A DNA stretch of 64,000 nt, taken from positions 1-64,000 of the forward strand of contig NZ_JAVDDV010000003.1 in the NCBI RefSeq assembly GCF_030848565.1, read 5' to 3'. The notes beneath the pieces were generated by a model. The model was not told where the DNA came from. It did no database searches and was given only the letters and a program-made list of their open reading frames with translations. Origin of the DNA: Natronolimnohabitans sp. A-GB9. Lineage in GTDB: Archaea > Halobacteriota > Halobacteria > Halobacteriales > Natrialbaceae. Positions 5,381-49,448 of the stretch are shown here, piece after piece. Position 1 is the first letter of the stretch, and each line of letters starts with the position of its first letter. Made by a program: the position numbers and the translations under genes.

Positions 5381-6280
5381 ATGGCCGAATCCGAGGTGGA
5401 TCTCGAATCCGAGAAGTACGAAAAGCACCGCGAGGCCGGCGAGATCCTCGCACAGGTGCGCGAAGAGACAGCCGAACGCGTCGAGGTCGGCGCGAGCCAC
5501 CTCGAGGTCGCCGAGTACGCCGAGGAGCGCATTCGCGAACTCGGCGGCCAGCCCGCATTCCCAGTCAACATCTCCGTCGACGAGGAGGCGGCCCACGCGA
5601 CGCCGTCGATCGACGACGAGACGACCTTCGGCGAGGAGATGATCAACCTCGATATCGGTGTCCACGTCGACGGCTGGCTCGCCGACACCGCGATCACCGT
5701 CGACCTCTCGGGTACCCCCGAACTCGCCGAGGCCTCTGAACAGGCCCTCGAAGCCGCGATCGACGTCATCGAGCCCGGCGTCGACACCGGTGACATCGGC
5801 GCCGAGATCGAGGCCGTCATCGACGGCTACGGCTACAACCCCGTCGTCAACCTCACGGGCCACGGGCTGGGCCACTGGGAGCAACACACCAGTCCGAACA
5901 TCCCGAACCGCGCCGTCTCGCAGGGGACGACGCTCGAGGTCGGCGACGTCGTCGCGATCGAGCCCTTCGCGACCGACGGCGGCGGCAAGGTGACGGAAGG
6001 GGCAAGCGAGGAGATCTTCGCCCTCGAGCGGGAGGGGTCGGTGCGCAACCGACAGGCCCGCCAGGCGCTCGAACAGATCACCGAGGAGTTTCGGACGCTG
6101 CCCTTTGCGACGCGATGGCTCGAGACCGACCGCGCGGAGATGGCGCTGCGTCGGCTCAAGCGCAACGACATCGTCCACGGCTACCCCGTCCTCAAGGAAG
6201 ACGACGGTTTCCTCGTCAGCCAGAAGGAACACACGATCATCGTCACCGAGGACGGCTGTGAAGTGACGACCGCGAACTGA
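5381..6280 (+). CDS. map: Methionine aminopeptidase, type II
   Basis: 299 residues, the normal length for archaeal MetAP. It removes the initiator methionine from nascent proteins using two metal ions. The pita-bread fold residues are visible: H72 in the strand preceding A-T-P-S-I, the metal aspartates in D-I-G-V-H-V-D-G and the following D-T-A-I-T-V-D block (from residue 91), H161 in G-H-G-L-G-H, E in A-I-E-P-F-A and E in the C-terminal I-I-V-T-E-D-G. The type II insertion lies between the third and fourth metal ligands, around residues 190-250. A TTTTT-rich stretch about 30 bases before the ATG could be the promoter, or it may be read through from the peptidase gene upstream. Confidence 0.96.
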   Translation: MAESEVDLESEKYEKHREAGEILAQVREETAERVEVGASHLEVAEYAEERIRELGGQPAFPVNISVDEEAAHATPSIDDETTFGEEMINLDIGVHVDGWLADTAITVDLSGTPELAEASEQALEAAIDVIEPGVDTGDIGAEIEAVIDGYGYNPVVNLTGHGLGHWEQHTSPNIPNRAVSQGTTLEVGDVVAIEPFATDGGGKVTEGASEEIFALEREGSVRNRQARQALEQITEEFRTLPFATRWLETDRAEMALRRLKRNDIVHGYPVLKEDDGFLVSQKEHTIIVTEDGCEVTTAN

Positions 6281-6434
6281 CACTCGAGAACGTCAGTTTC
6301 CCGTCTCGACACGATCACGGGAGCCGCCGTGGTCGTGACGGCACCGACGGAGTGTCGTTCGAACGAGGAAGGCACGTTCTCGAAGACGGGAGACGAAAAG
6401 AGAAACGGGTGACCGAGCAACGAGGGCGAGCGCG

Positions 6435-6511
6435 TACGGTCTCCTGGAGTAGTCCCGCCGATCGCCGACCCCGCGTGGCGATCGGTGGGGCGGCGGTCCA
6501 GCAGTCCGTAT
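6435..6511. repeat. Family B palindromic element
   Basis: TACGGTCTCCTGGA on the left and CCAGCAGTCCGTAT on the right bracket a GC-rich inner stem with CCGATCGCC facing GGCGATCGG. The right end overlaps the stop codon (6511-6513) of the zinc-ribbon gene on the minus strand. It is one of seven or more related elements in the window. Confidence 0.75.
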
Positions 6512-6711
6512 CAGGCGTTGTTCATCCGCTGGCTCGTGCGATTCCCACACCGTTGACACTCCGCAACGCGATAGGGCTCGCGAGAGAACTGTGCGTTTTC
6601 CTCTTTCAGGCTCTCGGTCCGGAGTTGGACCGACACCTCGTGGAGGGTGTCCAGCCCACAGTCCTCACAGTGCTCGGTCATCCCGTTGACGGAGTCGTCT
6701 GTCGTTGCCAT
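6511..6711 (-). CDS. Small zinc-ribbon protein
   Basis: 66 residues from the ATG at 6711 (M-A-T-T-D-D-S-V-N). Two Cys pairs, H-C-E-D-C-G near residue 13 and E-C-Q-R-C-G-N near residue 53, can bind one zinc ion in a zinc-beta-ribbon. Small zinc-ribbon proteins of this layout are common in Halobacteria; their role is unknown, with nucleic-acid binding or protein contact likely. The longer frame extending upstream to 6915 has no domain content and is rejected. The stop codon is built into a family B palindromic element, which probably ends transcription. Confidence 0.8.
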   Translation of the reverse strand: MATTDDSVNGMTEHCEDCGLDTLHEVSVQLRTESLKEENAQFSREPYRVAECQRCGNRTSQRMNNA

Positions 6712-7020
6712 TACCGAACCACTTCGGGGGTGCTCGCTTAAATCCTGTTTCATTTCGAGTTTCGTGGTGAAAATCCCAAGGGCTACCCCTCGCTCACTAC
6801 CGAGGCAAAACGGAACATCGGCACCGCTCAGCCGCCTCTCCAACCGTCGCTTTCGAAACTCAATCGTATACGACAGGAACGAGAATTGTATTATATAAAA
6901 TTCGGGCCGAATCACCTGACTGATATCCGTGGCTCGGCCGTGGGCGTAGCTACCATATCCGGGAGCCCGGGACAGGGAACCGTATGAAACGCTTTAGTTT
7001 CGTCCCGAGTGGTCTCTGAC

Positions 7021-37469: not shown

Positions 37470-37581
37470 ACCCGTCCGCGGACGGGAGACACACCGTCGC
37501 AGTGTGTTTCCAGCCAGTGTATCGCCACCCGATGAATTATCCTGGTTCACGACGAATCGACCGGGAGACGGCGTCGTACGT

Positions 37582-39732
37582 ATGACCGGAACGAACCAGG
37601 GGCCTCGAACTCGAGGGCGATGTTCGCTTCGAACGGCAGCCGAGCGTGACGCGTTCGGCGTCGCAACGCAATATACGCGGGCACACGACCTCGCGGTGCC
37701 GGCCGAATCGGCCTATCTCGAGGCCCTGCCGGCCGCTCGCCGCGAGATCAGCCACCGGTTTGCTCGCGGGCTGTTACGCGGGAAGCCACGTGGTCTCTCG
37801 GCCCCGCGGTTCGTGAGTCGTGAGTCCCTCGAGTCGGAGTCGGCGTCGGTCCCCGACGGCTCCGCGCCGCTGTCGGCACTCGAGGCAGACCGGCTCGCGT
37901 CGATCGCTGCCGACTGCCCCGAGTCGTGTCGTCGGCTGGGGCTGGTGGCGCTACCCGGCGCTGAGTGTGTCTTGTTCGTGCCGATCGCGACGCGTCACGG
38001 CTACGACCGGTTTCGGCTGGTCGGCACGATCCGTTCCTGGACGCCAAACACCGACGCGGTGACCGAACTCGATCATCCGGTTGATCTCGTTTCGCTGGTT
38101 GCGCGTGAGGGTGCGTTCAGCGACGACGAGCAGGCCGACCGCATCAGAACGGAGATCGCCGAGAGCGTCGCCAACCTCGCGCTGGCACGACTCGCCAGCG
38201 CCGTACACGGCACGCGAGTCGACGGCGTCGGAGACGACCCGCCTCTCGAGGCCGTCGCGAGTGGCGTCCCGGCTGCCGACGCCAGTGCCGCTTTCGAACG
38301 GATCGTCACCGACGGCCATCCGTTCCACCCCAGCGGCAAGATCCGACGCGGAATGTCACCGGGCGAGGGGCTCGCGTACGCTCCCGAGTTCACCGACCGG
38401 ATCGACGTTCGGTTCGTCGCCGTCGACCGGGCGTTCGCCCTCGAGACGCGGGCGGCGACGGCCGGTGGCGAGCGGTTGACCGATCGGTTGTACGCCGCCT
38501 TCGAGGGCCTCGAGGGCGCACTCGAGCGGGCGTTGCCCGCCGGCTGCGAGCCTGACGAGTACGCCGTCGTGCCGATCCATCCGCTGCAGTATCACCGGAC
38601 GATTCCGGACCGGTACGGCGATCGGATCGCCGACGGTCGCGTCGTACCGATCCCCGACTACAGCCGGCCGGCGACGCCCCAACTCAACCTCCGGACGGTC
38701 GTTCCCGACGGCGATGGGACTCACTCGCCCGACGACGTGCCGTTCCACCTCAAACTCGCGATTCCCGTCCAGACGACCAACGTCGTGCGGACGCTCTCGC
38801 CACACGCCGTCTCGAACGGCCCGCAGGTAACCGACGTCGTGCGCTCGATCGTCGATCGCGACGGGTTCGAGACGCTGGGGCTGCTGGCCGAGCCGGCCGC
38901 GACGTGTTACTACCCGCCCGGCGGCCCCCACCCGAGCGGCGATGGGTTCGACGACGCGCGACACCTGTCGGGCCTGGTGCGGACGAATCCGCTGTTACAC
39001 CCACACGTCGCGGAGCGGACGGCCGAGACGTATCCGGTGGTCGCCTCGAGTCTCGTCGCCGACACGCCGACGACGGGACGACCGCTCGTTGCCGAACTGA
39101 TCGCACAGTACGGCGACGCGATCGGGTGTCCCAGTACTGAACGCGCCGCACTCGAGTTCGTGACACGGTACGCCGCGGTCGTCGTCCCCGACCAACTGCG
39201 GCTGTTGTGTACCTACGGTATCGCCCTCGAGAGCCATCTCCAGAACAGTCTGGTCGTCTTCGACGCCGAGAGCGCGCGACCGCTGTCGACGCTCGTCCGG
39301 GACCTCGGCGGGATTCGCGTGTACGGTGGCCGACTCGAGAACCACGGACTCTCGATCGATCCGTATCCCGACTCGGATCTGGACGCCGACGACGAGTCGG
39401 CGCTCTACCGGAAGCTGTACTACGCGCTCTTTCAGAACCACCTCGCGGAACTCGTTGCGACGATCGCTTACGAACTAGACGTCGACGAACGGGCGTGTTG
39501 GGCGCGGATCCGCGAGCAATGCGAGCAGGCGTTCGAGGCGATTCGAGCCGACGGAGACGCCCCAGCGGACCGAGTCCGACGCGACCGACGGACCCTGTTT
39601 GACGAGCCGACAGTCCACAAGGCCCTGACCGCGATGCGACTGCAGGGCAACCGCCACGAGTACGTGACCAGCGACGTCTCGAACCCGCTTTCGACTGCGG
39701 GCCGCGAGCGGATCGACCGTCCTTCGAAGTAA
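37582..39732 (+). CDS. IucA/IucC family siderophore synthetase
   Basis: 716 residues from the ATG at 37582. The family core is clear: H-P-F-H-P-S-G-K-I-R-R-G-M-S near residue 237, I-H-P-L-Q-Y-H near 332, the L-K-L-A-I-P-V-Q-T-T-N-V-V-R-T-L block near 390, and H-L-Q-N-S-L-V-V near 552 followed by R-D-L-G-G-I. These enzymes join carboxylates such as citrate to amines or alcohols with ATP in hydroxamate- and carboxylate-siderophore assembly. No decarboxylase, oxygenase, exporter or second synthetase is nearby, unlike most iuc clusters. An N-terminal part of about 100 residues precedes the core. Confidence 0.88.
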   Translation: MTGTNQGPRTRGRCSLRTAAERDAFGVATQYTRAHDLAVPAESAYLEALPAARREISHRFARGLLRGKPRGLSAPRFVSRESLESESASVPDGSAPLSALEADRLASIAADCPESCRRLGLVALPGAECVLFVPIATRHGYDRFRLVGTIRSWTPNTDAVTELDHPVDLVSLVAREGAFSDDEQADRIRTEIAESVANLALARLASAVHGTRVDGVGDDPPLEAVASGVPAADASAAFERIVTDGHPFHPSGKIRRGMSPGEGLAYAPEFTDRIDVRFVAVDRAFALETRAATAGGERLTDRLYAAFEGLEGALERALPAGCEPDEYAVVPIHPLQYHRTIPDRYGDRIADGRVVPIPDYSRPATPQLNLRTVVPDGDGTHSPDDVPFHLKLAIPVQTTNVVRTLSPHAVSNGPQVTDVVRSIVDRDGFETLGLLAEPAATCYYPPGGPHPSGDGFDDARHLSGLVRTNPLLHPHVAERTAETYPVVASSLVADTPTTGRPLVAELIAQYGDAIGCPSTERAALEFVTRYAAVVVPDQLRLLCTYGIALESHLQNSLVVFDAESARPLSTLVRDLGGIRVYGGRLENHGLSIDPYPDSDLDADDESALYRKLYYALFQNHLAELVATIAYELDVDERACWARIREQCEQAFEAIRADGDAPADRVRRDRRTLFDEPTVHKALTAMRLQGNRHEYVTSDVSNPLSTAGRERIDRPSK

Positions 39733-42903: not shown

Positions 42904-44544
42904 ATGGCAGAACGCGGTGACAGGGACACCGGGGGCCTTCCACGTCGGTCGGTGCTCGCGGGACTCGGTGTGGCCGGGATCACCGGCACGGCCGGCTGTA
43001 TCAGCGCCGACGATGTCGCCGTCGATGGCGACGCCGAGGAACTCATCGCGGACGGGTTCCGGGAGGAAGGTGTCGAGCCGCCTGTCGAGGCCACGATCTA
43101 CGCGAACTCGGAGTCGGACGAACGCGTCGAGTGGGCACAGCTGGTCGCACACGAACTGAACGCGACGGGCCTGTTCGACGTCGGTTTCGAGTCTCTCGAG
43201 CTCCGCTCGTACATCGATCTGGTCGACAACATGGCCGAAAACGAGGCGAACGCGCTGATCTGTTTCGGCTTTATCGGCGGCTGGGATCCACACGCGTACG
43301 TCTACTCGGCCTTTCACTCCGATAGCGCCACTCCGAACGGACACAATATCACCCACTACGAGAACGAGACGGTCGATCGGCTCATCGACGAGGGCGTCGA
43401 GACAGTCGACAGCCACGAACGCGTCGAGATCTACGAGAAACTGCAGGAACGGCTCGTCGAGGACGCGCCGCTGTCGTTCGTTCGCGCCCACGAGGAGAAC
43501 GTCGTCTACCGGGCCGACGTCGTCGACGGCTTTCGTGCCTATCCCGTCTCGGGCGGCGAGTACACGTCACTTTATGCCCCGACGCTCGGGGTCTATACGG
43601 AGCTGCGAACCGACGCGGACGAACTCGTCGGCGACGTCGGGGCGGGAATCAGCAGCTACGACCCGACCGCGATCGACGACGACGTCTCGCGGATTGTCAC
43701 CGGACCGATCTACGAAGGGCTCCTCGAGGTCGACTTCGACGGGCGAATCCGCCCACTGCTCGCGACCGACTGGGAGCAACTCGACGAGACGACGTGGCGA
43801 TTCGAGCTCCGCGAGGACGTCCGGTTCCACACCGGCGAGCCGTTTACCGCTGCCGATGTGCAGGCTACCCTCGAGCGATACGAGGACACGCCTCGCGAGC
43901 GAGCCGTCTTCGAGTGGTACGACGACGTCGAGATCCGCGACGGTCACGAACTCGACCTCCACCTCCGGCGACCGTACGGGCCACTCGAGACGACGCTCGG
44001 ACAGCTCCCGATCGTTCCGGAGAGCGTCGCTGACGGCGAGTACGACCTCTCGAACAGGCCGATCGGAACCGGTCCGTACGTCTTCGACGAACACGACGAG
44101 GACCAGTACTGGCGGATGAAAGCCAACCCGGACCACTGGCACGACGGCAGCGGCGGCGTCCCCGAGACACCGCCGATCGAGACGGTCACGTTCCGAATCG
44201 TCACCGAGCCGTCGGCCCGACACGGGGCCATAGCGCGTGGCGACGTTCACCTGTCAACGGCGCTGTCGGGCGAGAGCGTCGCGGCGTTTGCCTCCGACGA
44301 CGAGTACGTCGTCGACCGGACGACCGGTGCGGCCGTCGACTTCCTGGGGTATCCGATCTACCGCGAGCCGTTTACTAATCCGAAGGTTCGGCGCGGAATC
44401 AGTCGCCTCATCCCGCGTGAGCGGATCGTCGAGGATGTCTTTCACGGCGCCGGTCGCGTCGCGTACACCCCGATTTCCCCGCTTCACGACGAGTTCGTTT
44501 CGCCGGCGTTCGAGTCCGAACTCGTCGACGAATACTTCAGCTAG
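42904..44544 (+). CDS. Peptide-type ABC transporter binding lipoprotein, circularly permuted
   Basis: 546 residues. A Tat signal (R14-R15-S-V-L-A-G-L) ends in a lipobox T-A-G-C32, so the protein is probably anchored outside the membrane by a lipid. It belongs to the SBP_bac_5 (DppA/OppA) family, but the order of parts is reversed. Residues about 43-235 match the usual C-terminal part (I-Y-A-N-S-E-S-D-E-R near 65, W-D-P-H-A-Y near 128, Y-E-K-L-Q-E-R-L-V-E-D-A-P near 178). Residues 240-546 match the usual N-terminal part (I-Y-E-G-L-L-E-V-D at 269, T-T-W-R-F-E-L-R-E-D-V near 297), ending with V-R-R-G-I-S-R-L-I-P-R-E-R-I at 495. It heads an operon with two permeases and two ATPases. Confidence 0.9.
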   Translation: MAERGDRDTGGLPRRSVLAGLGVAGITGTAGCISADDVAVDGDAEELIADGFREEGVEPPVEATIYANSESDERVEWAQLVAHELNATGLFDVGFESLELRSYIDLVDNMAENEANALICFGFIGGWDPHAYVYSAFHSDSATPNGHNITHYENETVDRLIDEGVETVDSHERVEIYEKLQERLVEDAPLSFVRAHEENVVYRADVVDGFRAYPVSGGEYTSLYAPTLGVYTELRTDADELVGDVGAGISSYDPTAIDDDVSRIVTGPIYEGLLEVDFDGRIRPLLATDWEQLDETTWRFELREDVRFHTGEPFTAADVQATLERYEDTPRERAVFEWYDDVEIRDGHELDLHLRRPYGPLETTLGQLPIVPESVADGEYDLSNRPIGTGPYVFDEHDEDQYWRMKANPDHWHDGSGGVPETPPIETVTFRIVTEPSARHGAIARGDVHLSTALSGESVAAFASDDEYVVDRTTGAAVDFLGYPIYREPFTNPKVRRGISRLIPRERIVEDVFHGAGRVAYTPISPLHDEFVSPAFESELVDEYFS

Positions 44545-44564: not shown

Positions 44565-45518
44565 ATGTCACTCGCGAACTACGTTCTCAGACGGGTGGTG
44601 GTGACGATCCCGGTACTGCTCGGTGTGACGGCGATCACGTTCTCGCTGCTTCACGTAGCACCGGGTGATCCGATCGACGTCGTGACCGGCTTTCAGAACG
44701 TCGACGACGACGTCGAGGCGTCGCTACGCGCCGAGTACGGCCTCGATCGGCCCGTCTGGGAGCAGTATCTCGTGTGGGTGGCCGACGTACTCACCCTCGA
44801 GTTCGGCGAGTCGCCGGTTACGGGTCGTGACGTCGGGGCGACGATCGCCGAGCGACTCCCGTACACGCTCTTGCTCGGCGGTTCCGCCTGGCTGCTCTCG
44901 CTTCTGATCGGAATCCCGGCGGGCGTCGTTGCGGCCGTCAAACGGGGCGAGCCGGCCGACGAGGTCAGTCGCATCGCGGCGCTTGCCGGCATCGCCACCC
45001 CGAACTTCTGGCTTGGGCTGGTCCTCCTGCTCGTCTTCGGTGTCCACCTGGGCTGGTTCCGGGTGATCCCGCCGGACGCGCCGCTTTTGAGCCTCGAAAT
45101 GCTGTGGTTTATGCTCCTCCCGACGATCACGCTCGGGACGGCCTCTGCCGCACTCGTCATGCGACTGTTGCGGTCGTCGATGCTCCGGGAGTTGAACGAG
45201 GGGTACGTCCGTACCGCCCGTGCGAAGGGGTTGCGCGAGCGGACGGTGATCTGGAAACACGTACTGCGAAACTCCTTGATCGCCGTCGTCACCGTCGCCG
45301 GTCTCCAGATAACGCTTCTCGTCGACGGCGCGGTCGTCGTCGAGCAGGTGTTCTCCTGGCCCGGTATGGGCCGGCTGCTGGTCGACGCGATCGGTCGGCG
45401 CGATTTCCCGGTCGTACAGGCGAGCGTGCTGTTGATCGGCGTCACCGTCGTCGTCGCGAACCTGCTCGTCGATATCACCTACTCCTATCTCGATCCACGA
45501 ATCAGATACGACCGATGA
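44565..45518 (+). CDS. dppB: Peptide-type ABC transporter permease, DppB-like
   Basis: 317 residues with six membrane helices. Hallmarks: N-terminal Y-V-L-R-R-V-V-V-T-I-P-V-L-L-G-V, the L-H-V-A-P-G-D-P segment near residue 28, A-x-L-P-Y-T-L-L-L-G near 102, and the ATPase-docking EAA loop R-T-A-R-A-K-G-L near 218. With the DppC-like partner it forms the membrane channel. It begins 20 bases after the binding protein gene and overlaps dppC by four bases. Confidence 0.95.
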   Translation: MSLANYVLRRVVVTIPVLLGVTAITFSLLHVAPGDPIDVVTGFQNVDDDVEASLRAEYGLDRPVWEQYLVWVADVLTLEFGESPVTGRDVGATIAERLPYTLLLGGSAWLLSLLIGIPAGVVAAVKRGEPADEVSRIAALAGIATPNFWLGLVLLLVFGVHLGWFRVIPPDAPLLSLEMLWFMLLPTITLGTASAALVMRLLRSSMLRELNEGYVRTARAKGLRERTVIWKHVLRNSLIAVVTVAGLQITLLVDGAVVVEQVFSWPGMGRLLVDAIGRRDFPVVQASVLLIGVTVVVANLLVDITYSYLDPRIRYDR

Positions 45519-46546
45519 CCGAGCATCAACCGACCACCGAACGCGGCCGGATTCGAATCGAGGGCTTCGAGGAGGCCGTCGACGAGACGGACCGCGACGG
45601 CGTCGACGTCTGGGACGACGACCGACGGTCCGAGCGTCGAGGTCGTCTCGAGGACGTCTGGCGTCGGTTTCGGTCGAACCGATCGGCGATGGTCGGACTC
45701 GGAGTCGTCGCCGGGCTCGTCTTTCTCACGGTCTTTGCACGGCCGCTCGAGTTCTCGACGATGGGGTATACGATCACGGTCCAGCCGTTCTCGCTTGCAC
45801 CCCACGATCCAAGCGAGATGTACGTCGGACCCGCAAACGCCGGTCCGTCGCTTGCCCATCCGTTCGGGACCGACTGGGCGGGTCGCGATCAGTTCTCCCG
45901 GGTCCTCGCTGGCGGTCGGTTCAGCCTGAGCATCGGTGCGATCGCCGTCGCGCTTGCGCTCCTCGTCGGGATCCCGCTGGGTGCGATCGCCGGCTACGCC
46001 GGCGGCTGGGTCGACGAACTCGTCATGCGGCTGGTCGATACGCTCTATGCGTTCCCGTTTCTGGTCCTCGCGATCGCGATCGTCGCCGTCCTCGGCCAGG
46101 GCTACTGGAATCTCGTCGCCGCGCTTGCGCTTACCGGCTGGATCGGTTACGCGCGCCTGCTTCGGGGCGAAGTCCTCGCCGTGAAAGAACGCGAGTACGT
46201 CACCGCAGCGACGGCACTTGGCGTCCCAGATCGGACCGTCGTCTTCCGCCACGTCGTCCCGAACGCGATCGCCCCCGTAATCGTCCAGGCGACGTTAAAC
46301 GTCGGCACAGTCGTGCTTTCGGCCGCGGCGCTTGGCTTTCTGGGGCTGGGTCTCGATCCGAGCACCGCCGAGTGGGGCGCGATGCTCTCGCGAGGTCGTG
46401 ACTCGCTCGTCCACGGCCACTGGCACGTCACCGTCTTCCCCGGGTTGGCGATCTTTCTGTTCGTGATGGCGATCAACCTCGTCGGGGATGGCCTCAACGA
46501 CGCGCTCGATCCACAGGGCGAAACGGTCGAACGGAGGCGACGATAG
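45515..46546 (+). CDS. dppC: Peptide-type ABC transporter permease, DppC-like
   Basis: 343 residues from M-T-E-H-Q-P-T-T-E. An acidic N-terminus of about 60 residues precedes F-R-S-N-R-S-A-M-V-G-L and six helices. Family signs are H-P-F-G-T-D-W-A-G-R-D near residue 112, the EAA loop K-E-R-E-Y-V-T-A-A-T-A-L-G-V near 225, and A-L-G-F-L-G-L-G-L near 270. A periplasmic loop of about 45 residues after the first helix is normal for DppC. ATGA overlap with dppB; the stop touches dppD. Confidence 0.95.
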   Translation: MTEHQPTTERGRIRIEGFEEAVDETDRDGVDVWDDDRRSERRGRLEDVWRRFRSNRSAMVGLGVVAGLVFLTVFARPLEFSTMGYTITVQPFSLAPHDPSEMYVGPANAGPSLAHPFGTDWAGRDQFSRVLAGGRFSLSIGAIAVALALLVGIPLGAIAGYAGGWVDELVMRLVDTLYAFPFLVLAIAIVAVLGQGYWNLVAALALTGWIGYARLLRGEVLAVKEREYVTAATALGVPDRTVVFRHVVPNAIAPVIVQATLNVGTVVLSAAALGFLGLGLDPSTAEWGAMLSRGRDSLVHGHWHVTVFPGLAIFLFVMAINLVGDGLNDALDPQGETVERRRR

Positions 46547-47596
46547 ATGGCGCTGCTAGAAGTCGAGGACCTCGTCGTTCAGTTCTACACCGAAGATGGC
46601 ACTGTCCGTGCCGTCGACGGGATCAGCTACGAGATCGACCGCGGCGAGACGGTCGCCCTCGTCGGCGAGAGCGGTGCCGGCAAGAGCGTCACCTGTCTCT
46701 CATTGCTTCGACTGCTCGAGCGTCCCGGCGAGATCGTAAGCGGCGAGATCCGATTCGACGGCCGAGACGTCCTCGGACTCTCGGACGAGGAGCTCCGGGA
46801 CCTCCGTGGCAACGAGATCGCGATGGTGTTTCAGGACCCGTCGGCGGCGCTCAACCCCGTCTACACCGTCGGCGAACAGATCGCCGAAGCGATCCGGGCC
46901 CACGAGGACGTCACCGACGAGACGGCCCGTCGCCGGGCGATCGACCTTCTCGAGCGCGTCGAGATCCCCGACGCCGCGAGCCGCTACTCGGAGTACCCAC
47001 ACGAGTTCTCCGGCGGCATGCAACAGCGGGTCGTCATCGCGATGGCGCTGTCCTGTGAGCCCGACCTCCTCGTCTGTGACGAGCCCACGACTGCACTGGA
47101 CGTCACGATCGAGGCCGGAATCCTCGAGTTACTCGAGGACCTCGCCGCGGAGTTCGATACGGCGATCCAGCTCGTCTCTCACGATCTGGGCGTCGTCGCC
47201 GGACTCTGTGATCGTGTCCAGGTCATGTACGCCGGCGAGATCGTCGAGCGTGCGCCCACCGAGGAGCTCTACTACGACCCGAAACATCCCTACACGGTTG
47301 GACTGATGGCGTCGATCCCACGGATCGGTGACGACCGCGACGAACTTCCGACGATTCCGGGATCGATGCCGGATCTCGTCGACGTGCCGACGGGCTGTCG
47401 GTTCCATCCGCGCTGTCCGTACGCCGAGGAGGCCTGCAGACTCCGTGCCCCGTCGCTCGTCGACGTCGAGACGGGCGTCCCCGCCGACGAGCCGGCGCCG
47501 AACGACCATCTCGCGGCCTGTCACGAGTACACCGACGACCTCGTGGACGGGCTCGACTACGAGGTCGTCGTCGAGGACGGGGGTGGGCTCGAGTGA
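46547..47596 (+). CDS. dppD: Peptide-type ABC transporter ATPase, DppD-like
   Basis: 349 residues. Walker A G-E-S-G-A-G-K-S (40-47), Q-loop V-F-Q-D-P, signature F-S-G-G-M-Q-Q-R near residue 158, Walker B L-L-V-C-D-E-P-T near 178, and H-loop L-V-S-H-D-L. The C-terminal Cys-rich C-R-F-H-P-R-C-P-Y motif near 285 is the oligopeptide-transporter C-terminal domain, which in related proteins binds an iron-sulfur cluster. Immediately follows dppC. Confidence 0.96.
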   Translation: MALLEVEDLVVQFYTEDGTVRAVDGISYEIDRGETVALVGESGAGKSVTCLSLLRLLERPGEIVSGEIRFDGRDVLGLSDEELRDLRGNEIAMVFQDPSAALNPVYTVGEQIAEAIRAHEDVTDETARRRAIDLLERVEIPDAASRYSEYPHEFSGGMQQRVVIAMALSCEPDLLVCDEPTTALDVTIEAGILELLEDLAAEFDTAIQLVSHDLGVVAGLCDRVQVMYAGEIVERAPTEELYYDPKHPYTVGLMASIPRIGDDRDELPTIPGSMPDLVDVPTGCRFHPRCPYAEEACRLRAPSLVDVETGVPADEPAPNDHLAACHEYTDDLVDGLDYEVVVEDGGGLE

Positions 47597-48927
47597 GCGA
47601 CGACGAACTCCTGTTGCGCGTCGAGGGGCTCGAGAAGGAGTACACGACGACCGAGGGCGTTCTCGATCGACTGCTCGGCAACGGAACGCGAGTGACGGCC
47701 GTCGACGGTGTCGACCTCGAGATCTACGAGGGCGAGACGCTCGGTCTGGTCGGCGAGAGCGGCTGTGGGAAGACCTCGCTCGCTCGCTCGATCCTGCGGC
47801 TCACCGAGCCGACCGCCGGCTCGGCCGTCTACCGCGACACCGATCTGACGACCCTCGAGGGGTCGGCGCTGCGTGAGCTTCGAGCGGACGTCCAGTACGT
47901 CTTCCAGAACCCCTTCGAAAGCCTGAACCCGCGACTGACCGTCGGCGACATCGTCGGTGAGGCGCTTTCGGTTCACGACGTCGTCCCGCCCGACGAGCGA
48001 GACCGGCGAGTCGGAGAACTGCTCGAGACCGTCGGCCTGCGGGCCAGCCACGCCACCCGCTATCCACACGAGTTCTCCGGCGGTCAGCGCCAGCGGATCG
48101 GCATCGCCCGGGCGCTGGCGGTCGAACCCGAGTTCGTCGTCCTCGACGAGCCCGTCTCCGCACTCGACGTCTCCGTCCAGGCGGGGATCCTGAACTTGCT
48201 CGAGGAGCTTCAGACCGAGTTTGGCCTCTCGTATCTCTTCATCGGCCACGACCTCTCGGTCGTCGAACACGTCGCCGACCGGATCGCCGTGATGTACCTC
48301 GGCGAAATCGTCGACCGCGGCCCGACCGAGGAGCTCTTCGACGGCGACGCCCACCCGTACACGGAGGCGTTGCTCTCGGCGATCCCCGAACCCGACCCGC
48401 TCTGGGAGGGCGATCGGATCGTTCTCGAGGGATCGGTGCCGTCACCAGCCGACCCGCCCTCGGGCTGTCGATTCCACACTCGCTGTCCGAAACTGCTCTC
48501 GCCGGCCGAGTACGACCTCGAGCCCACGACGGTCCGGGCGCTTCTGGAGCTTCGAACGGGACTCGCCGAGGCCGACGGTCTCGAGTCACTGCCAGTCGAT
48601 CCCGATCCCGACCCCGAGGCCGACGATGTTCAGGCCGCGCTTCGTGACGCGTTCGACGTCCCGGCTGACCTCGGTGACGACGCGGCCGAGGCCGTCCTCG
48701 AGACCGCACTCGAGACAGCGGCCGCCGGCGACGTCGAAACCGCCAGGGCACGACTCGAGTCGGCGTTCACCACACCCTGTGAAACCGACCGACCGCGACT
48801 CGAGCCCGTCGATAGCGGTGCCGGCGGTCCCGATACTCACGCGGTTGCCTGTCATCGGTTCGACGACGCAGGTACGGAGACGGACGAACGACCGGACCGA
48901 GCCGAAACGACACCCACACAGCAATGA
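47593..48927 (+). CDS. dppF: Peptide-type ABC transporter ATPase, DppF-like, long C-terminus
   Basis: 444 residues with GTG start overlapping the dppD stop. Walker A G-E-S-G-C-G-K-T-S near residue 56, signature F-S-G-G-Q-R-Q-R near 161, Walker B F-V-V-L-D-E-P-V near 182, H-loop F-I-G-H-D-L. The oligopeptide domain C-R-F-H-T-R-C-P-K is near 294. A further 120 residues, rich in Asp, Glu and Ala and mostly helical, follow; a Cys near the end (V-A-C-H-R) matches the usual last Cys of this domain, so the acidic part looks like an insertion inside it. Confidence 0.95.
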   Translation: MSDDELLLRVEGLEKEYTTTEGVLDRLLGNGTRVTAVDGVDLEIYEGETLGLVGESGCGKTSLARSILRLTEPTAGSAVYRDTDLTTLEGSALRELRADVQYVFQNPFESLNPRLTVGDIVGEALSVHDVVPPDERDRRVGELLETVGLRASHATRYPHEFSGGQRQRIGIARALAVEPEFVVLDEPVSALDVSVQAGILNLLEELQTEFGLSYLFIGHDLSVVEHVADRIAVMYLGEIVDRGPTEELFDGDAHPYTEALLSAIPEPDPLWEGDRIVLEGSVPSPADPPSGCRFHTRCPKLLSPAEYDLEPTTVRALLELRTGLAEADGLESLPVDPDPDPEADDVQAALRDAFDVPADLGDDAAEAVLETALETAAAGDVETARARLESAFTTPCETDRPRLEPVDSGAGGPDTHAVACHRFDDAGTETDERPDRAETTPTQQ

Positions 48928-49448
48928 GACGGGCCGACGACTCCCGCGCCGTAGAGCGCGACACGGACGATCCGTTTACGCCTGCAGCGACCGACGAAGG
49001 CAGTCGCCACACGATCGATTGGGAAGCACTGAGCCACGCTTTCCTGCCCGTCGCGGTTCGCCACCGGGCGATCGACGTCTCGATCACGACCGACCGCGAC
49101 GTCTACGCTCCCGGCGACCCCGTCTCGATCGGGATCGAGTTTCGCAACCGGCTGCCGTTTCCGGTCCGGCTGCGGACCGACTCACCCGAGCCGTGGACCT
49201 GGGCCGTCGACGGCGCGACGGCCGCCTCTCGACTCGAGCGGCCGATCCCCGACCGGCCCGACACGTTCTCTTTCGCCCGGAGCGAACGCAAGCGGTTTCG
49301 CCGCGAGTGGCCCCAGCGCATCCGTATCGCCGACGACGAGTGGACGCCCGTCGATTCCGGGCAGTATACGCTCGAGGCATGGATCAACCGCGAAGATGCC
49401 GCCGACTGTGGGCTCGTCGCGACGACCGAGATCGAGATCCGAGAGTGA
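48924..49448 (+). CDS. Beta-sandwich protein of unknown function, last gene of ABC operon
   Basis: 174 residues; the start overlaps the dppF stop (ATGA). Residues 48-174 look like a beta sandwich similar in outline to the BsuPI/intracellular-inhibitor fold (V-Y-A-P-G-D-P-V-S-I-G-I-E-F-R-N near 62, then S-G-Q-Y-T-L-E-A-W near 150). No signal peptide or membrane helix is seen. The tight coupling suggests a job with the transporter or its cargo, but this is inference. Its stop codon runs into a degenerate family A arm. Confidence 0.75.
   Translation: MRRADDSRAVERDTDDPFTPAATDEGSRHTIDWEALSHAFLPVAVRHRAIDVSITTDRDVYAPGDPVSIGIEFRNRLPFPVRLRTDSPEPWTWAVDGATAASRLERPIPDRPDTFSFARSERKRFRREWPQRIRIADDEWTPVDSGQYTLEAWINREDAADCGLVATTEIEIRE

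Follow-up and report, generated by a model that had tools for sequence, protein, structure and literature searches.

A circularly permuted SBP_bac_5 lipoprotein heads a Dpp/Opp/Nik-type ABC transporter operon in haloarchaea

Among the genes in a 64,000-nucleotide stretch of the Natronolimnohabitans sp. A-GB9 genome (contig NZ_JAVDDV010000003.1, positions 1 to 64,000; hereafter the window), one appeared from the letters alone to encode a peptide-binding lipoprotein whose two halves stand in swapped order, within an otherwise standard ABC operon. Is the order indeed swapped, and if so, how did it arise and where does it leave the lipid anchor of a transport receptor? The evidence set out below indicates that the protein is very probably the substrate-binding protein (SBP) of a Dpp/Opp/Nik-type ABC importer (SBP_bac_5 family, Cluster C) whose chain is the ordinary fold in naturally permuted, circularly rotated order. 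On re-reading, we confirmed the open reading frame, its coordinates, the signal and the segment boundaries (Table 1). The original prediction was wrong in placing the protein's end just after the VRRGISRLIPRERI block, as the chain runs about 37 residues further.

Table 1. The permuted gene, its parts and the operon that it heads (window coordinates)
Feature	Position	Strand	Basis
Circularly permuted SBP_bac_5 lipoprotein gene, 546 aa	42904..44544	+	ORF; swapped Pfam/PDB matches; rotation; AlphaFold2
Tat-type signal peptide and lipobox, Cys32 predicted lipid-anchor residue (RRSVLAGLGVAGITGTAGC)	42904..42999	+	Read from sequence
Segment 1, residues 43-236, C-terminal part of ordinary SBP_bac_5	43030..43611	+	5u4o 362-492; f4 identity
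Joint of ancestral C- and N-termini, about residues 227-241, TLGVYTELRTDADEL	43582..43626	+	Comparison with linear termini
Segment 2, residues 237-546, N-terminal part of ordinary SBP_bac_5	43612..44541	+	5u4o 58-327; Pfam 2-254; break position
Permease B, DppB/OppB type	44565..45518	+	Pfam BPD_transp_1 and BPD_transp_1_N; kept beside permuted and linear SBP
Permease C, DppC/OppC type	45527..46546	+	Pfam BPD_transp_1 and OppC_N; conserved
ATPase D, DppD/OppD type	46547..47596	+	Pfam ABC_tran and oligo_HPY; conserved
ATPase F, DppF/OppF type	47593..48927	+	Pfam ABC_tran and oligo_HPY; conserved
174-aa protein, sixth conserved operon gene	48924..49448	+	Orthologue in nearly every locus examined

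As encoded, the protein matches the Pfam SBP_bac_5 profile (PF00496) at residues 282-531 with 191.3 bits against a gathering cut-off of 32.4, which places it in the family by sequence, yet this match covers only positions 2-254 of the 368 in the profile and not the full profile in normal order. Two swapped Pfam matches had been proposed as a check; only the one match was found, and the swapped order appeared instead in alignments to known structures. The best match of a phmmer search against all PDB chains was 5u4o, in two swapped stretches (query 253-522 aligned with 58-327 of the chain, query 60-196 with 362-492), and Bacillus subtilis AppA (1xoc) and Agrobacterium AgaA (6hlx) aligned in swapped stretches in the same way. 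When the chain was rotated in silico, such that residues 237-546 were followed by 43-236, a single Pfam match extended over positions 2-365 with 198.7 bits (191.3 unrotated), 5u4o aligned in one piece over 58-492 with 151.7 bits (144.2 unrotated), and AppA and AgaA each gave a single alignment (23-506 and 23-466, respectively). The claim of swapped halves is thus borne out by the profile and PDB alignments together with the rotation, and since the encoded protein covers the normal-order profile only in part and the rotated one covers it almost to its ends, we file it as a permuted variant of SBP_bac_5.

The N-terminal 193 residues alone had no match in Pfam, as the family model spans only the middle of the protein, and this segment was identified through matches to the PDB and to orthologues. 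With the C-terminal part of the closest orthologues of normal order (family f4) it shares 42-46% identity, in keeping with the earlier assignment of the first 190 or so residues to the family and contrary to an unrelated domain there, and the larger segment is 47-51% identical to its counterpart in the same proteins. Hardly anything has been lost from the mature chain in the circular permutation. A chimaera, in which segments of two different SBP genes were fused, would also show swapped order if neighbouring paralogues had joined, and tandem SBP pairs are present in this genome; however, both segments find their nearest normal-order relatives in one set of f4 orthologues, at comparable identity, and between them span the whole profile a single time, with no part doubled or lost, making such a fusion very improbable next to a permutation of one gene.

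The point at which the chain is opened is well defined. In linear relatives, where the region reads ...EFNQRMGDEYLGYDPEKAATLLEEGFNEAG..., a loop just a few residues long separates a helix that ends in ...DEY from one that begins with DPE.A..LL, and the break falls in this loop, in agreement with its predicted position before the D-x-x-x-A-x-x-L-L segment. Permuted proteins finish with ...GESFQESIADEYVRPN or ...EEFNQRMGDEYSRYYGAE (the new C-terminus of segment 2 reads ...ELVDEYFS) and start, past the lipobox and a short spacer, with ...GPAEELIEEGF..., the break being common to all permuted members to within a few residues. Comparison of the joint with linear C-termini (YAPWADAYTTVGGG) and linear N-termini (ELVATLGADV..DPT) shows a linear C-terminus, ...IYAPWADAYTTVGGG, running into the ancestral N-terminus, ELVATLGADVKNYDP, as YAPTLGVYTELRTDADELVGDVGAGISSYDP, without a large insertion, and this joint is near-seamless across the permuted members. 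A Tat lipobox motif is common to all permuted and linear orthologues examined, and in the permuted ones it precedes the new N-terminus.

In ordinary SBP_bac_5 proteins the termini sit in lobe I. Domain III of OppA reportedly comprises residues 271-486 or thereabouts, and going by the OppA domain boundaries, the break in the window protein presumably falls in lobe II. Both chain ends would therefore have moved to a new surface, and the lipid anchor would have shifted from lobe I to lobe II, a move that, as suggested from the letters, may alter how the protein docks on the permeases.

We modelled the mature protein with AlphaFold2 from an alignment of permuted homologues only and without templates, and obtained a mean pLDDT of 93 and a pTM of 0.89. 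When a linear homologue was modelled likewise (pLDDT 79), its helices and strands proved to follow one another in an order rotated against that of the permuted model: helix 11-23, strand 29-36 and helix 40-55 of the permuted model correspond to linear helix 321-335, strand 341-348 and helix 351-365, and at the permuted C-terminus helix 502-513 matches linear helix 306-317. Foldseek requires that both chains run in the same order; its alignments of the permuted model to binding proteins in the PDB mostly spanned about 250 columns at a TMq of about 0.4, with some longer, poorer alignments and a best TMq of 0.51, whereas the linear control, though a less confident model, aligned along all of its chain, over about 500 columns, at a TMq mostly of 0.70-0.80. 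The order of secondary structures, the confidence of the model and the partial Foldseek matches to Cluster C structures together suggest that the permuted protein shares the SBP_bac_5 fold, and it is predicted to form the two-lobed flytrap of ordinary members.

The genes downstream are those of an otherwise standard ABC operon, as had been proposed: Pfam calls and the comparison of loci agree on this, and two BPD_transp_1 permeases with two oligo_HPY ATPases mark the operon as Dpp/Opp/Nik-type (PepT family). The same arrangement, SBP-PermB-PermC-ATPase D-ATPase F-174-aa protein, is headed by permuted and linear genes alike, except that at one or two linear loci the last gene lies elsewhere or was not found; searches of the 174-aa protein against Pfam and NCBIfam gave no match. 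A phosphoribosyltransferase gene (Hpt) precedes the operon in the loci examined from the window's own family (f1), mostly with DUF7344 and CoaBC ahead of it. The best NCBIfam match of the SBP is NikA-like Opp5A, at 133 bits against a cut-off of 600, and we rejected a substrate assignment from NCBIfam, all SBP scores being far below the equivalog cut-offs. An IucA/IucC-type siderophore synthetase with an FhuF-like C-terminal domain is encoded a few genes upstream (window 37504-39732), and a synthetase of this type is also found near the operon at two further loci (L065 and L066). A link to the Haloferax siderophore transporter was checked in the published paper and discarded as unrelated.

Could the permuted lipoprotein have left transport, and act as a sensor or scavenger uncoupled from the permeases? 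The same genome carries a second permuted family (L172, L173 and L174, described below) away from Dpp-type permeases, which would suit such a role, but in every permuted locus of the window gene's kind whose surroundings we examined, the permuted SBP is the first gene of an otherwise unchanged SBP-BCDF operon. Uncoupling is therefore improbable, and the operon context argues for an ordinary ABC importer receptor. As such, the flytrap would capture from the cell's surroundings a small ligand, peptide-like or related, and pass it to PermB and PermC, with ATPases D and F powering import.

The suggestion that other haloarchaea share the layout proved correct. The permuted form was found in 48 genomes in two families with the same break: 44 of 125 genomes in f1 and 4 of 146 in f3 carry a relative whose segments are colinear with those of the permuted query, one of the f1 relatives being interrupted by a frameshift. 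Examples include Haloterrigena salina, Natrarchaeobius chitinivorans, Natrialba swarupiae, Salinadaptatus halalkaliphilus and many Natrinema species. The layout is identical in 36 intact homologous ORFs from separate genomes, some of them single-contig, and is therefore neither chance nor an assembly error. The one relative that would speak for a sequencing or assembly artefact, or for a decaying pseudogene, is that of Natrinema versiforme JCM 10478 (G164; L064/L159), in which the permuted gene lies in two frames, split near the segment joint; this may reflect a pseudogene, an error in sequencing or a protein truly made as two chains. For the window gene, an artefact or pseudogene is refuted by the conservation of the ORF across many independent assemblies and has a negligible probability, third codon positions also being those that change most in the permuted gene.

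Close relatives in normal order (f4) were found in 15 genomes, one of them split between two frames. A Salinarchaeum metagenome-assembled genome (MAG; L160) carries a linear form, as do more distant family members with the same operon. Two bacterial candidates that seemed permuted from their match ranges, in Inquilinus (L161) and Rhodospirillales (L162), prove linear.

The linear order is ancestral, being that of the outgroup and of most of the rest of the family. On the number of changes since then, the trees differ. A single change of order suffices in the larger SBP tree, whereas trees of concatenated transporter genes and of all genes group the f3 permuted operons with the f4 linear operons (support 80-82), a grouping that requires either two permutations at the same loop or one permutation followed by reversion to linear order in f4. 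A single permuted clade was not rejected by the AU test (p-AU 0.17 for transporter genes, 0.27 for all genes and 0.51 for the SBP), and the break is common to within a few residues; we consider two origins or a reversion unlikely, though less so than the alternatives above, and favour one origin because of the shared break point.

The simplest route would be tandem duplication of a linear gene, in-frame fusion of the copies and trimming of both outer parts, with the remaining operon unchanged. The ancestral C- and N-termini would thereby be joined through a linker of a few residues, the chain opened in the lobe II loop between two helices, just ahead of the DPE.A..LL helix, and a Tat lipobox signal placed before the new N-terminus, putting the lipid anchor on lobe II rather than on lobe I.

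The window gene is not the only permuted member of its family. A Pfam census of the window's genome returned seven SBP_bac_5 genes, three matching to the profile end and four stopping at about position 254-288 of 368. Besides the window gene, the four comprise three genes for Tat lipoproteins, a tandem pair (L172 and L174, contig C29 of this genome, G000) and L173 (contig C13), which form the second permuted family: hhalign pairs the start of these proteins with the C-terminal part of linear ones (E 2e-5) and their end with the N-terminal part (E 7e-30), and in no case the other way round. This family has relatives in 191 of the 292 haloarchaeal genomes sampled and forms a clade separate from the window family; no Dpp-type permeases lie near its genes at the loci examined. 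In the two genomes that we read in detail, membrane proteins stand beside these SBPs: those of this genome (L175:3375-4241 and 6092-7012, minus strand) match Pfam PAP2_3, a membrane protein beside another second-family SBP (L178:8529-9428) resembles them, and SBP and PAP2-type neighbour possibly constitute a distinct two-gene system.

In another archaeal family (f15), L184, L185 and L186 are permuted and L205 is linear, and L183 may represent a further permutation. Over its two segments L185 shares 79% and 77% identity with L205, indicating that the f15 permutation is recent. The permuted gene of L185 points away from the adjacent permease gene and both point the same way in linear L209, which hints at an inversion or a circular intermediate. 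An SBP_bac_5 protein of a Synergistales MAG (L165:2341-4080) is permuted too and has Pfam positions 146-360 first and the earlier part of the profile after them, and here the break lies elsewhere, before the strand that follows a conserved YW motif. Counting the window family, the second haloarchaeal family, one or two cases in f15 and the Synergistales MAG, circular permutation has probably recurred in SBP_bac_5, particularly in archaea, in at least four separate events, with breaks mostly in lobe II near the A..LL helix and the anchored end repeatedly transferred from lobe I to lobe II. Profile searches truncate such proteins, and permuted SBPs are consequently annotated as partial or ordinary.

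The window protein shares its family and operon type with the Cluster C binding proteins AppA (1xoc), DppA (1dpp), NikA (1zlq) and 5u4o, and differs from them in its swapped segments, its termini in lobe II and its apparently displaced anchor. The linear f4 orthologues (L038 and L042 among them) have the six-gene operon, at the loci examined, and the Tat lipobox in common with it and keep the normal segment order. The second haloarchaeal family resembles it as SBP_bac_5 Tat lipoproteins with the same general rotation; however, it is only about 27% identical, its break comes some 25 residues later in the chain and follows the A..LL..AG helix, and at the loci examined it adjoins PAP2-type membrane proteins where the window SBP adjoins permeases. 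In the open-access literature that we searched, we found no report of a natural permutation in Cluster C or in haloarchaea. The one naturally permuted ABC binding protein that this search yielded belongs to another cluster: MglB-2 of Treponema pallidum (Tp0684) is a circularly permuted Cluster B sugar-binding lipoprotein, which its authors proposed to label 'Type Ic / Cluster Bc' and whose permutation they tentatively connected with membrane tethering (PMC4990184). Both are membrane-tethered permuted ABC binding proteins, yet TpMglB-2 has a Cluster B (Type I) fold, another break and another transporter class (PMC4990184), and the window protein, which matches SBP_bac_5 and Cluster C structures, is not a member of Cluster Bc. 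Why anchored binding proteins become permuted was raised without an answer for TpMglB-2 (PMC4990184). Permuted and linear orthologues that head operons with the same permeases and ATPases constitute a natural permutation experiment, in which the effect of the moved anchor and chain ends, and with it the reason for such permutations, becomes testable in natural pairs.
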